Origin: Pseudomonadota bacterium
GTDB lineage: Bacteria; Pseudomonadota; Gammaproteobacteria; Xanthomonadales; Rhodanobacteraceae
NCBI GenBank assembly: GCA_018241165.1
Contig: JAFEEK010000062.1
Location: 1 to 11,594 of the forward strand
Direction: 5' to 3'
Length of the DNA: 11,594 nucleotides
Shown: positions 4,308 to 8,820 of the stretch, one piece after another
Layout of the letters: each line of letters starts with the position of its first letter
How positions within the stretch are numbered: the first letter of the stretch is position 1
Made by a program: the position numbers and the translations under genes
Notes under the pieces: generated by a model
Databases searched by the model: none
What the model saw: the letters and a program-made list of their open reading frames with translations, nothing else
What the model was told of the DNA's origin: nothing

Positions 4308-4365
4308 GCTGAATGGCGGCTAATGCAACATGCGCGCATGCTGCGGGGGAAGGCGGCCATTCAGC
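4308..4365. repeat. Nested inverted repeat upstream of the FecR-domain gene
   Basis: GCTGAATGGC (4308-4317) and GCCATTCAGC (4356-4365) are perfect inverted arms. Between them lies a second palindrome, CATGCGCGCATG (4329-4340), extended by GCA/TGC on both sides with one mismatch. The structure occupies the 228-nt gap between the tRNA promoter and the start at 4478. It could form a cruciform or two-stem RNA, or bind a dimeric regulator. Apart from this and a weak TAAAGT box around 4399-4404, I see nothing else in the gap. Confidence 0.55.
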
Positions 4366-4477
4366 TTCACCGCGCAAAGATTCATGGCGTAAAGTTAGGG
4401 ATCCGGCAAGGTCATTCGGCAACCCCGGCCAGCCGGCAGTTTTTCAACCACCGCGTGACGCGCCAAGGAGCGCTGCC

Positions 4478-6895
4478 ATGTTCCGACTCTCTCGAATCGC
4501 TGTCCTACTGGCCGGTATCGGCCTTGCCTTCGCCGTGTTGGCGCAAGACAACGGTACGCCGGTCGACCCGCCAGGCCGCGTGGCCCGGCTTTCCTACATG
4601 CAAGGCGATGTCAGCTTCGTGCCGGCCGGCGAAAACGACTGGGTGCAGGCGCAACTGAATCGCCCGCTGATCACAGGCGACAAGCTGTGGACCGACCGCG
4701 GCTCGCGCGCGTCGCTGGAAATCGGCGCCGCCGCCGTGCGCATGGATCAGAACACGAGTTTCGACTTCCTCAATCTCACCGACAACACCGCGCAGATGGA
4801 ATTGACGCAAGGCACGCTGAACCTGCGCGTGCGCCGCCTGTACGACGGCCAGAGCTACGAGATCGACACGCCTACGCTTGCATTCGTGGTCAATCGCGTC
4901 GGCGTGTTCCGCATCGACGTCGAACCCGACGGCCGTTCGACCGTCGTCACCGTGCTCAGCGGCGGCGGCGACGTTTACGGCGAGGGCGGCGCGCGCTTTG
5001 CCGTCGACGAGGGCCAGTCGGTCACGTTCCATGACGCGCAATTGCGCGACTACCAGGTCAACGACTTGCCGCGCACCGATGCGTTCGACGATTTCTGCCA
5101 CGACCGCGATACGCGCTGGGACAATTCGTCCTCGCGCCGCTATGTGTCCGAAGACGTAATCGGCTACCAGGACCTGGACAGCTACGGCTCGTGGAGCGAC
5201 GTGCCCGAGTACGGCAATGTCTGGTATCCGACGTCCGTCGCCGTGGGCTGGTCGCCGTACCACTCCGGCCATTGGGCCTGGGTCGGCGCCTACGGCTGGA
5301 CCTGGATCGATGATTCGCCATGGGGCTTTGCACCGTTCCATTACGGACGCTGGGCCTACATCGGCAACCGCTGGGGCTGGTGCCCGGGCCCGGTCGCGGT
5401 GCGCCCGGTCTATGCGCCTGCGCTGGTCGCCTTCGTCGGCGGTCGCGGCGGCTTCGGCGTCAGCGTCTCGATCGGCGGCCCGATCGGCTGGTTCCCGCTC
5501 GGTTATCGCGACGTCTACATCCCGCCGTATCGCGTCAGCCAGAATTATTTCACCCGCGTCAACGTCAGCAACACGGTGATCAACAACACCGTCATCAACA
5601 ACTACTACGGCAACTACTCGCGCGGCGACGTCGATTACGCGCGCATCAGCTACGCCAACCGCAACATCGCCGGTGCGGTGACCGCGGTGCCGGCGGCGGC
5701 ATTCGTCGCTTCGCGTCCGGTTGCCGGCGCGGCCATCGCCGTCAATCGCGAAACCTTCGCCAACGCCCGCGTCTCCGGTTTCGCCGCGATCGCCCCGACC
5801 CGCGCCAGCCTTGCGCCGGCCGTCGCGGCACGCGCAGTACCGGCGGCGACCGTGGTCAATCGTCCGATCGTCGCGGCAACGGCTCCGCCCGCCCGAGTCG
5901 CTTCGTTCGCGCAACGCCAGGCCGTGCTGGACAAGAATCCGGGCCGGCCGTTGAGCGAACACCAGCTGCGCACCACGGCGGTTGCCGCGGGAGCCGTCGC
6001 CGGCGGCGCCGCGGAGGCGCGCGCGATCGGTGCGCGTCCGAATGTGCGCGTGGTCACCGAGCGTGGCGCGCCGACCTTCACGCCCGCCAAGGCCTTGCCG
6101 GCGCGCGCGGAGCCTGCGACAGGCGTATCCCGTGCGGACCAGGGCCTGCGTGAAAACGCGCGCCCCGAAGGGTCCTCCGATCGCGGCATGCCCGCCGTCA
6201 ACCGCAATGCGCCGACCGTGCAACGCGCGGCGCCCGCGGCGACCGGCAACGCCGGCGAGCAACCGCGTCATCTTGACTCGTCGCGATTCGCACATCCGCA
6301 GGAAACCGGGGTGCGCGCAGCACAACCGGAGCGCACCGCGCCGAACCGGGAAATCCAGCGCACCGTGCCGGCAAACAAGCCAACGTCCAACGAGGATCGC
6401 GGCAATGCCAACGGCAACGGGCGTGCGGCCACCAATTTCGGCAACCGCACGGTGGCGCCGGCGCAAACCCAGCCCGAATACCGGGCCCCGCAGCGCAACG
6501 TGCAGGAGGACCGGGCCCCGCAACAGGAATACCGTGCCCCGCAGCGCAACGTGCAGGAGAATCGGGCTCCGCAACAGGAATACCGCGCACCGCAGCGCAA
6601 CGTGCAGGAGAATCGGGCTCCGCAACAGGAATACCGCGCACCGCAACGCAACGTGCAGGAATATCGCGCACCGGCACAACCGCAGCAGGAATACCGCGCA
6701 CCGCAGCGCAACGTGCAGGAATATCGCGCACCGGCACAACCGCAACAGGAATACCGCGCACCGCAGCGTAGCGTGCAGGAATACCGCGCGCCGCAGGGCA
6801 ACGCCCAGCCGAACGCACGCGTGGCGGAACCGGTGCAGCGCGGCAACGCGCCCGAACACAAGAAGAACGACGACAACAAGGATCATCGCAATTGA
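4478..6895 (+). CDS. Secreted FecR-domain / DUF6600-like protein with C-terminal YRAPQ tandem repeats
   Basis: The start is set by AAGGAG 7 nt before the ATG and by a signal peptide (MFRLSRIAVLLAGIGLAFAVLA, cleavage near 22). The 805-residue protein has several zones. A FecR-like beta domain (about 33-185) contains ARLSYMQGDVSFVPAGE, GDKLWTDRGSRASLEIG and VLSGGGDVYGEG. A Trp/Tyr/Gly-rich domain (about 222-345) contains WAWVGAYGWTWIDDSPWGFAP and HYGRWAYIGNRWGWCPGP. An Asn/Val/Tyr stretch lies at about 355-380, and then a long Ala/Arg/Pro-rich, probably disordered region. Tandem repeats occupy about 666-773, and the tail is basic with many Lys and Asn (EHKKNDDNKDHRN). The FecR fold here lacks the anti-sigma helix and a nearby sigma factor, so iron signalling is unlikely. 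A periplasmic or surface structural role is inferred. A strong terminator follows. Confidence 0.88.
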   Translation: MFRLSRIAVLLAGIGLAFAVLAQDNGTPVDPPGRVARLSYMQGDVSFVPAGENDWVQAQLNRPLITGDKLWTDRGSRASLEIGAAAVRMDQNTSFDFLNLTDNTAQMELTQGTLNLRVRRLYDGQSYEIDTPTLAFVVNRVGVFRIDVEPDGRSTVVTVLSGGGDVYGEGGARFAVDEGQSVTFHDAQLRDYQVNDLPRTDAFDDFCHDRDTRWDNSSSRRYVSEDVIGYQDLDSYGSWSDVPEYGNVWYPTSVAVGWSPYHSGHWAWVGAYGWTWIDDSPWGFAPFHYGRWAYIGNRWGWCPGPVAVRPVYAPALVAFVGGRGGFGVSVSIGGPIGWFPLGYRDVYIPPYRVSQNYFTRVNVSNTVINNTVINNYYGNYSRGDVDYARISYANRNIAGAVTAVPAAAFVASRPVAGAAIAVNRETFANARVSGFAAIAPTRASLAPAVAARAVPAATVVNRPIVAATAPPARVASFAQRQAVLDKNPGRPLSEHQLRTTAVAAGAVAGGAAEARAIGARPNVRVVTERGAPTFTPAKALPARAEPATGVSRADQGLRENARPEGSSDRGMPAVNRNAPTVQRAAPAATGNAGEQPRHLDSSRFAHPQETGVRAAQPERTAPNREIQRTVPANKPTSNEDRGNANGNGRAATNFGNRTVAPAQTQPEYRAPQRNVQEDRAPQQEYRAPQRNVQENRAPQQEYRAPQRNVQENRAPQQEYRAPQRNVQEYRAPAQPQQEYRAPQRNVQEYRAPAQPQQEYRAPQRSVQEYRAPQGNAQPNARVAEPVQRGNAPEHKKNDDNKDHRN
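6473..6796 (+). repeat. In-frame tandem repeats (51-nt then 60-nt units) in the FecR-domain gene
   Basis: The codon for the Glu of EYRAPQ recurs at 6476, 6527, 6578 and 6629 (51-nt spacing), then at 6689 and 6749 (60-nt spacing). The short unit encodes QEYRAPQRNVQENRAPQ and the long one QEYRAPQRNVQEYRAPAQPQ. Adjacent copies are almost identical at DNA level, including synonymous sites, which suggests recent duplication. A last partial unit ends near 6796. Both unit lengths are multiples of three, so copy-number change keeps the frame. Confidence 0.92.
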
Positions 6896-7205: not shown

Positions 7206-8015
7206 GTGAATGCGCAACTGAAAACCGCCACAACTTTCGACGACGCCCTCGTGATCGCCGGAAAGTCCTACCGTTCGCGCCTGCTCACCGGCACCGGCAA
7301 GTACAAGGATCTGGATGAAACCCGGCGCGCCACCGAAGCGGCCGGCGCGCAAATCGTCACCGTGGCGATCCGGCGCACGAACATTGGCCAAGACCGGAAT
7401 GCGCCGAACCTGCTCGACGTGCTGCCACCGCAAAAGTATACAATTTTGCCGAACACGGCCGGCTGCTACACCGCCGACGATGCCGTGCGCACCTGCCGGC
7501 TCGCGCGCGAACTGCTCGACGGCCACAGCCTGGTCAAGCTCGAAGTCCTCGGTGACCAGAAGACGCTGTTCCCGGACGTCGTGCAAACGCTCAAAGCCGC
7601 CGAAACCCTGGTCGCGGAAAAATTCGAGGTGATGGTCTACACCAGCGACGATCCGATCCTGGCCAAGCGCCTGGAGGAAATCGGCTGCGTCGCGGTGATG
7701 CCGCTGGCCGCGCCGATCGGCTCGGGCTTGGGCATCCAGAACCGCTGGAACATCCTCGAAATCGTCGAAACCGCCAAGGTGCCGATCATCGTCGACGCCG
7801 GCGTCGGCACCGCGTCGGATGCCGCGATCGCGATGGAACTGGGCTGCGACGGCGTGCTGATGAACACTGCGATCGCCGGCGCGAGGGATCCGGTGCTGAT
7901 GGCCGCGGCGATGCGCAAGGCGGTCGAAGCCGGGCGCGATGCATTTCGCGCCGGCCGCATCCCGCGCAAACGCTACGCTTCCGCGTCGAGTCCCATCGAT
8001 GGCACCATCGGCTAA
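7206..8015 (+). CDS. thiG: ThiG, thiazole synthase
   Basis: This 269-residue cytoplasmic TIM-barrel enzyme condenses deoxyxylulose 5-phosphate, dehydroglycine and ThiS-thiocarboxylate into the thiazole phosphate of thiamine. K111 in [16 protein letters not shown] is the imine-forming lysine. Phosphate-binding and barrel motifs include LLTGTGKY (26-33), VTVAIRRTN (51-59), NTAGCYTA (83-90), [13 protein letters not shown] (170-182) and [28 protein letters not shown] (196-223). The C-terminus has the family ending [15 protein letters not shown] ([10 protein letters not shown]). It begins at a GTG codon 3 nt after thiS, inferred to be coupled to it. Its last 17 nt overlap the upstream candidate start of trmB. 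Length and motifs are normal for the family. Confidence 0.97.
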
Positions 8016-8820
8016 GCCCGTGCGCCGAGTGCGCAGTCTTTTCCTTCCCCCGCCTGCGGGGGAAGGTGCCGAAGGCGGAAGGGGGGAAAACATGGAGCGC
8101 GCTTGCACGACTTCCCCTCACCCCAGCCCTCTCCCGCAAGCGGGAGAGGGGGAAAAGCGCCACATCCGCAGTTTCGTACTGCGCCAGGGCCGCTTCACGC
8201 CCGCGCAGCAACGCGCGTTCGACGCGCACTGGCAGCGTTACGGCCTCGATCCGCAGACGCCGCTCGACGCCGCCGCGGTGTTTGGCCGGCGCGTGCCATT
8301 GGTTCTGGAAATCGGCTTCGGCAACGGCGAGCAGTTGCTGTGGTCGGCGCAGCGCGAGCCGGACAAGGATCTTCTTGGCGTGGAAGTGCATCGCCCCGGT
8401 GTCGGCCGCCTGCTCAACGCGCTGGCCGCGCACAATGTGGACAATGTGCGTTTGTATAATTCCGACATCATTACCGTACTGGACGCGGCGATCGCACCTG
8501 CGGCCCTGAGCGAAGTGCGCATCTATTTCCCCGATCCGTGGCCGAAGAAGCGCCAGACCAAGCGCCGCCTGATCCAGCCGGAATTTGCCGCCCGTCTCGC
8601 CACCCGCGTCGCGCCCGGCGGACGCTTGCATCTGGCCACCGACTGGGCGGACTATGCCGCGCAGATGCGCGACGTTCTGGACAACGCGAGCGGCTGGCGC
8701 AACCTGGGCGGCGCGGATGGTTTCGTCGTGCAGCCGCCATGGCGCACGCAGACGCATTTCGAGAAACGCGGACGCAAGCTCGGTCACGGCGTCTGGGACC
8801 TGCTGTATGAACGCCGTTGA
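7999..8820 (+). CDS. trmB: TrmB, tRNA (guanine-N7)-methyltransferase, with repeat-derived N-terminal insertion
   Basis: TrmB methylates G46 at N7 in tRNA using S-adenosylmethionine. The SAM-binding motif [11 protein letters not shown] (103-113), [16 protein letters not shown] (127-142), [15 protein letters not shown] (176-190), TDWADYA (214-220) and the C-terminal [21 protein letters not shown] are all present, so the catalytic core is intact. The N-terminus is odd. The family normally has one [14 protein letters not shown] segment, but here KPVRRVRS (6-13) and [14 protein letters not shown] (54-67) are separated by 40 residues translated from palindromic repeats ([20 protein letters not shown]). 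From ATG 7999 the protein is 273 residues; without the extra 45 it would be 228, a normal length. An alternative ATG at 8092 (242 residues) has GGAAGGGGGG in front, itself part of the repeat. The stop is certain; the start is not. Confidence 0.9.
8032..8172 (+). repeat. Doublet of inverted palindromic repeats (REP/REPIN-like) inside the 5' end of trmB
   Basis: Two perfect 11-bp hairpins with 2-nt loops lie at 8043-8066 (CCTTCCCCCGC/GCGGGGGAAGG) and 8127-8150 (CCCTCTCCCGC/GCGGGAGAGGG). The second half, read in reverse complement, resembles the first, so the pair is in inverted orientation. CTTTTCC (8038-8044) and GGAAAAG (8151-8157) are terminal inverted arms. The sequence CGCAGT occurs at 8032-8037 and again at 8167-8172, exactly 135 nt apart. 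This is the structure of a REP doublet of the kind mobilised by RAYT transposases. The palindrome type encoding [10 protein letters not shown] is a familiar intergenic repeat in many proteobacteria (recollection). Confidence 0.82.

Follow-up and report, generated by a model that had tools for sequence, protein, structure and literature searches.

The window, a stretch of 11,594 nucleotides, carries on its plus strand a gene (7206-8015) which we take to be thiG (thiazole synthase); its start is that given in the list of open reading frames, and the name was assigned from its C-terminal motif. The TAA stop codon of this gene (8013-8015) is overlapped by the trmB frame, which extends on the same strand from ATG 7999 to 8820 (273 amino acids) and begins like the M[AE]PS-like predicted starts of its relatives. 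The frame is open throughout: a lead of 13 codons is followed by an insert and then by the entry of the conserved core. Comparison with relatives, together with a by-eye match to the segment around R26 in the E. coli enzyme, placed the TrmB core at 8158-8820 (plus strand). A start-site scan found an alternative frame of 242 amino acids (8092-8820, plus strand), whose ATG lies within the insert and is preceded by GAAGGGGGG at a spacing of 5 nt. The product matched PF02390 (Methyltransf_4) with an E value of 7e-46 and PDB entry 3dxx, a tRNA m7G46 methyltransferase, with an E value of 1e-51. The preliminary description of this DNA was thus correct in stating that the frame is kept, that it contains no stop codon and that the enzyme core is intact. 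It had also called trmB an essential-type gene, but TrmB is termed nonessential in bacteria in a passage of PMC10130221.

The insert is an inverted repeat doublet of 119 nt (8039-8157, plus strand), whose limits were set by a search of its own genome and by placing the copies side by side. Unit A (8039-8086, plus strand) contains the palindrome CCTTCCCCCGC-CT-GCGGGGGAAGG at 8043-8066 and ends with a purine-rich tail, a possible Shine-Dalgarno sequence. Unit B (8114-8157, plus strand), which follows after a loop, contains the palindrome CCCTCTCCCGC-AA-GCGGGAGAGGG at 8127-8150 and encodes 15 residues in the trmB frame. The presence of two palindromes in the N-terminal part of trmB had been noticed before. 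The ends of the doublet are roughly inverted (TTTTCC..GGGGGAAAA), and the predicted folding energy of the whole element is -62.3 kcal/mol. All three forward and two of the three reverse frames of the element lack stop codons; with five of six frames open, we did not accept the open frame and the length divisible by three as proof of coding. A length that preserves the frame would occur by chance in one case out of three. A structured RNA was considered and rejected: the five Rfam matches (E up to 1), each to a microRNA precursor family and each on the minus strand, stayed short of the gathering scores (best 33.7 versus 72 bits), and any long hairpin may give such matches. Among plasmid records 18 had a match, none covering 80%; one reached 71% coverage with 74% identity, the others 25-32% coverage.

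The source genome of the trmB site (G000, 2.45 Mb) contains 62 palindrome cores, whereas the reversed control pattern was not found at all, thus the palindromes occur far beyond chance. A search of this genome with positions 8030-8165 of the window, which follows the suggestion to look there for the same repeat pair, revealed five further near-full-length places with 75-87% identity: on contigs C413 (query positions 10-128, 87%), C17 (10-125, 85%), C76 (9-131, 81%), C32 (10-129, 75%) and C513 (14-121, 76%). The remaining matches consisted of isolated units, or of fragments of pairs composed differently. As judged by eye, the ATG of the inter-unit loop is not a consensus feature of the other doublets. 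The site set of G000 comprised 59 cores with at most two mismatches, located at 42 sites, 17 of which have two cores within 250 bp; the inverted arrangement was seen by eye among the copies placed side by side. Palindromic units of 20-40 bp in many copies and inverted pairs, both characteristic of REP sequences, are therefore present in this genome.

Matches to the palindrome were found in 32 of the 60 genomes searched. Within the genus the copy number was highest in G007 (65 cores) and G000, followed by G011 (29), G013 (28), G015 (20) and G003 (19); the other ten genomes had 0-13 cores. Four genomes of the same order but outside the family (G047, G048, G049 and G057) carried 56-166 cores. On two contigs of G049 (C5 and C7), the genome with 166 cores, the palindrome stands in series with a spacing of about 160-170 bp. 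A RAYT gene, which had been named as a possible companion of the repeat, did not appear in G000: the Y1 transposase family (PF01797) gave no match in this assembly, which is 89.55% complete, and therefore a RAYT may have been missed. PF01797 was also without match in the five remaining members of the genus that have at least 19 cores (G003, G007, G011, G013 and G015). Among the ten members with at most 13 cores, G004, G008 and G014 scored over the cut-off, G002 and G010 had sub-threshold matches, and G001, G005, G006, G009 and G012 had none. As the Y1 transposase is missing from poor and rich genomes alike, it is often absent in this genus, regardless of how many cores a genome carries.

The trmB copy is one of many that lie in reading frames. 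From the 42 sites, 86 frames extend 45 codons or more to either side of an element; 38 translations from 28 of the sites, the trmB site included, were scanned with Pfam. At 12 of the 28 scanned sites the frame of a single protein continues through the element, with Pfam domains on either side of it or spanning it, which is the behaviour known from the protein-coding palindromic elements of Rickettsia (RPE). The names of these proteins were taken in part from Pfam; presumably they are a ThiL-like AIR synthase (L037), LpdA, with the element in the lipoyl-to-FAD linker (L038), two E2 acyltransferases, with the element in the linker (L039, L049), an S9 peptidase (L040), GcvP (L046), valyl-tRNA synthetase (L048), a POR/DUF6537 oxidoreductase whose POR side scored below the cut-off (L051), a multicopper oxidase (L055), a KMO-like monooxygenase (L056), the HrpB helicase (L158) and DnaE, with the element in the finger domain (L174). 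A thirteenth candidate, an NTP transferase (L047), has a domain to just one side of the element; the trmB site itself is N-terminal, and at the 14 other scanned sites Pfam gave no domain support for an in-frame element. These copies bear out the likeness to in-frame palindromic elements that had been suggested for the trmB insert. They do not agree with the opinion that either outcome at trmB, a translated insert or a restart, would be unusual: since in-frame copies are found at 12 of 28 sites and peptides resembling that of unit B recur in TrmB relatives, the trmB insertion is not unique.

Alignments within ten genus genomes revealed relatives without the insert for all three genes that were aligned (HrpB, ThiL-like and KMO-like). 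The HrpB comparison comprised nine genomes, because G015 yielded only a 37% identical relative, and the loop at the insert site varied in length among the nine. In the ThiL-like gene the element takes the place of part of a variable loop, and is not a clean addition. The insert of the KMO-like gene (element at about 1500) occurs with identical length and frame in G000, G007, G013 and G001 (L056, L199, L200 and L202), with the palindrome broken by substitutions in some of the carriers; in the alignment it is absent from G015, G006, G011, G003, G008, G002 and G014. The KMO-like matches of G013 and G006 contain one TAA each. On the evidence of these alignments, the in-frame REP unit common to four genus members appears to be a long-lived intragenic insert.

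The trmB site was compared with 120 TrmB relatives, the ones listed out of 7999 matches; P0096 and P0101, which do not have the core motif, were excluded from the tail counts and the trees. In a FastTree tree of 130 TrmB cores, including 11 additions from genus genomes, the window TrmB grouped with P0001 and the G015 protein (support 92; order inside the group 39). These are also its two nearest relatives among the listed and genus proteins, with core identities of 94% and 93%, respectively. Neither of them shows such a doublet at the site. The predicted tail of P0001 is 16 amino acids long (MEPSPDSARGAAPATT), contains no repeat and, in the protein sequence that is available, no Met, Val or Leu that could serve as a later start. 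The thiG-trmB spacer of G015 is different, lacks the A and B palindromes as judged by eye, and is followed by a start near the core. The alignment with close relatives that had been proposed thus speaks for an inserted doublet, which is most simply explained as a recent gain in the lineage of the window. The differences between P0001 and G015 at this site also indicate that the thiG-trmB junction is variable in the genus. The first four trmB codons from 7999 have counterparts in relatives, whereas none were seen for codons 5-13. Of the 120 listed relatives, 34, including P0001, have predicted starts of the form [MV][AE][PRIL][SL], like the MAPS of the window, but the M[AE]PS likeness is in part a consequence of the overlap with the thiG frame. 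Three loci of the family (L094, L099 and L101) have, by eye, repeat-like stretches in the thiG-trmB spacer followed by an ordinary start, from which it follows that N-terminal repeats are often not coding. A thiG-trmB spacer of similar sequence was seen in three genomes (L002, L008 and L011); a GCGGCC..GGCCGC palindrome is present in L002 and L011, thus the junction collects several kinds of repeat.

A core was recognised in 118 of the listed relatives, and in 81 of these the tail is 15 amino acids or longer. Directly before the core, 20 of these 81 tails contain an ungapped match to the unit B peptide with p<0.01 against shuffles, the best being P0025, P0084, P0097, P0092, P0052, P0038 and P0040. 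In these relatives the predicted start lies a few residues ahead of an SPHP-like peptide, and P0084, P0092 and P0097 form a supported clade. For a separate tree, which did not include genus genomes, 15 B-tail rows were picked by hand: 13 of the 20 with p<0.01, to which P0047 and P0020 (p about 0.04) were added; the seven other p<0.01 tails, of unlike shape, were left out. The B-tail label (16 rows) required 12 changes, of which supported branches force 6; shuffled labels required 15.3, and a count this low was reached in 2 of 500 shuffles. With rows picked by hand, this count is indicative only. The distribution suggests that B-like tails were gained repeatedly and in part inherited, as in the clade of P0084, P0092 and P0097. 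A wider view, in which REP units in this lineage act as portable N-terminal modules of trmB, unit A providing a ribosome site, the loop a start and unit B a Pro/Gly-rich tail, introduced repeatedly at one spot and then inherited as coding sequence, is offered tentatively and has perhaps less in its favour than against it.

The following history would account for the locus. A dispersed inverted doublet of the REP type would have entered trmB in the hypervariable N-terminal tail, 13 codons past the start that overlaps thiG. The insertion would have survived, with TrmB still made, because it spared the core and preserved the frame, and we infer that it was neutral. Unit B would then have become an extra N-terminal peptide, with initiation either at the old start, which would add both units (about 45 residues), or at ATG 8092 by means of the purine tail of unit A. 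We consider it likely that a REP-type doublet was inserted in the tail in this way, leaving core and frame intact, and that unit B is translated from 7999 or from 8092; between the two starts we lean slightly to 8092.

The in-frame ATG, GTG and TTG codons between 7939 and the core are at 7939, 7999, 8020, 8029 and 8092; the next one after 8092 is GTG 8278, beyond the core entry. Only ATC 8164 and CTG 8179 stand between these two, and initiation at either would leave unit B untranslated; such start codons are rare. As the in-frame stretch from ATG 8092 to the core contains no further ATG, GTG or TTG, it is very probable that unit B is translated, whereas unit A would be so only if ATG 7999 is used. 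Residues 1-36 of E. coli TrmB are unresolved, yet R26 is described as important for tRNA binding in the part of PMC10130221 that deals with this region, and the segment containing it (FVRRQGRL, read from a primer sequence) was matched by eye to the window core. The start should therefore lie upstream of RSFVLRQGR, at or before 8092.

Restart at ATG 8092, with unit A as ribosome site, the loop as start, unit B as the new N-terminal tail and the earlier codons dead, comes close to an even chance in our judgement. The predicted pairing with the anti-Shine-Dalgarno sequence is -11.3 kcal/mol at this ATG, near the -10.0 kcal/mol of the thiG start (GTG 7206), compared with -2.5 kcal/mol at ATG 7999, and this stronger ribosome site is the reason why 8092 is slightly favoured over 7999. 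It also agrees with the earlier suggestion that the repeat can supply both a ribosome binding site and a start codon. The B-tailed relatives, including the clade of P0084, P0092 and P0097, have their predicted starts just before the SPHP-like peptide, but these starts are predictions on protein sequences. The ribosome site is built from the purine tail of unit A and can also be locked in hairpins, that of unit A among them, and the lack of a consensus ATG in the loops of other doublets likewise speaks against a restart.

Initiation at ATG 7999, coupled to the termination of thiG, would result in translation of both units as a 45-residue insert; this is plausible, if rather less than an even chance. 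It is favoured by the M[AE]PS-like predicted starts of the relatives, above all by P0001 with its tail without another start, and by the preserved frame across the element. In G011 a related but different doublet follows an ATGA-overlap trmB start and precedes the core, in frame, and the frame from that start continues through the doublet, although there is a weak GTG inside it. Against ATG 7999 stand its weak ribosome site, the two GC-rich hairpins in the path of the ribosome, and the part that the thiG overlap has in imposing the M[AE]PS residues.

The hexamer CGCAGT is present at 8032-8037 and again at 8167-8172, exactly 135 nt apart as previously noted, and the entry motif had been described as split and repeated. 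A 6-mer common to both flanks (within 20 nt on each side) occurred in 10.6% of 19810 random pairs, a best 16-nt flank match of at least 11 within 6-nt offsets in 3.1%, and a match of at least 12 of 16 in 2.0% of 3000 random pairs. When the flanks of the 42 sites, which may include element arms, were compared, the trmB site reached 12/16, one other site 13 and another 11. The repeated CGCAGT is thus not beyond chance across 42 sites, and a split and repeated motif is not established. That the insertion made a target-site duplication, leaving the core entry motif (RRVRS/RHIRS) on both sides of the element, we regard as unlikely. Exactly abutting 16-nt segments do match at 11 positions, a result obtained with 0.14% of random and 0.32% of 50000 phase-matched pairs; none of 1064 codon starts matched the right-hand flank copy equally well, and none of the 118 tails of listed relatives contains a motif of this type. 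However, the best flank match is about what chance predicts for 42 sites, and neither the 42-site comparison nor inspection of copies by eye revealed general flank duplication at other element copies. Compared with a MITE, which would carry terminal inverted repeats and a target-site duplication, the doublet offers its roughly inverted ends, beside flanks whose match is not beyond chance over the 42 sites.

Least probable, and in our view very unlikely, is that the element is an ordinary 5′ spacer, a terminator or mRNA-stability hairpin, with TrmB starting after it at a rare codon: relatives do show repeat-like stretches followed by ordinary starts, and many N-terminal REPs may be extragenic according to the section of PMC3733652 on REPs in genes, but in the window there is no in-frame ATG, GTG or TTG from 8092 to the core, and GTG 8278 lies beyond the tRNA-binding motif.

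In-frame REPs in genes have been described before. The same section of PMC3733652 reports GTAG/CGTC REPs inside open reading frames: short palindromes, inverted dimers among them, in frame in conserved genes including DnaE and tRNA enzymes, with N-terminal cases that are ambiguous and may be extragenic. The trmB-type units differ from these, as they end with TGAGGG-like or AAGGGGG sequences and by eye lack the unpaired terminal tag GTAG or CGTC, and no RAYT was found in G000. REPINs with a RAYT transposase, as outlined in PMC3116915, are likewise dispersed inverted doublets of REP units, but the trmB doublet is composed of two unlike units, and no Y1 transposase was found in G000. The Rickettsia palindromic elements, cited in PMC3733652, are also palindromic repeats in frame in protein genes; the host is unrelated, and the likeness is one of behaviour. 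The enterobacterial RU repeats, to judge from the description in PMC2759123, are small and mobile, and genes that contain them retain the encoded peptide; their lengths are 103, 127 and 168 bp, and they are likened by description. Literature searches with the insert peptides gave no match, most subscription papers being outside their scope; a search on trmB with palindromic, REP or N-terminal extension returned, by title among the matches listed, nothing about repeats in trmB. With similar copies inside other genes of G000, the trmB doublet is a good but not unprecedented example.

The copies in G000 mean that 'extragenic' palindromes can enter and persist in many conserved proteins of one small genome, in tails, linkers and loops. 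The trmB site raises the question of a translation start supplied by a repeat, and its tail lends itself to testing whether a mobile hairpin can provide both a start and a new protein end. Repeat-derived N-termini proposed by gene finders should be treated with caution before they are discarded, as they may be real.

Two other features of the window were noted. The open reading frame at 4313-6895 contains tandem peptide repeats, EYRAPQRNVQE-like, near its C-terminal end. On the minus strand, 193-2174 holds a pair of genes that appear to resemble a repressor of the BlaI type and a membrane peptidase of the M56 (BlaR1-like) type.
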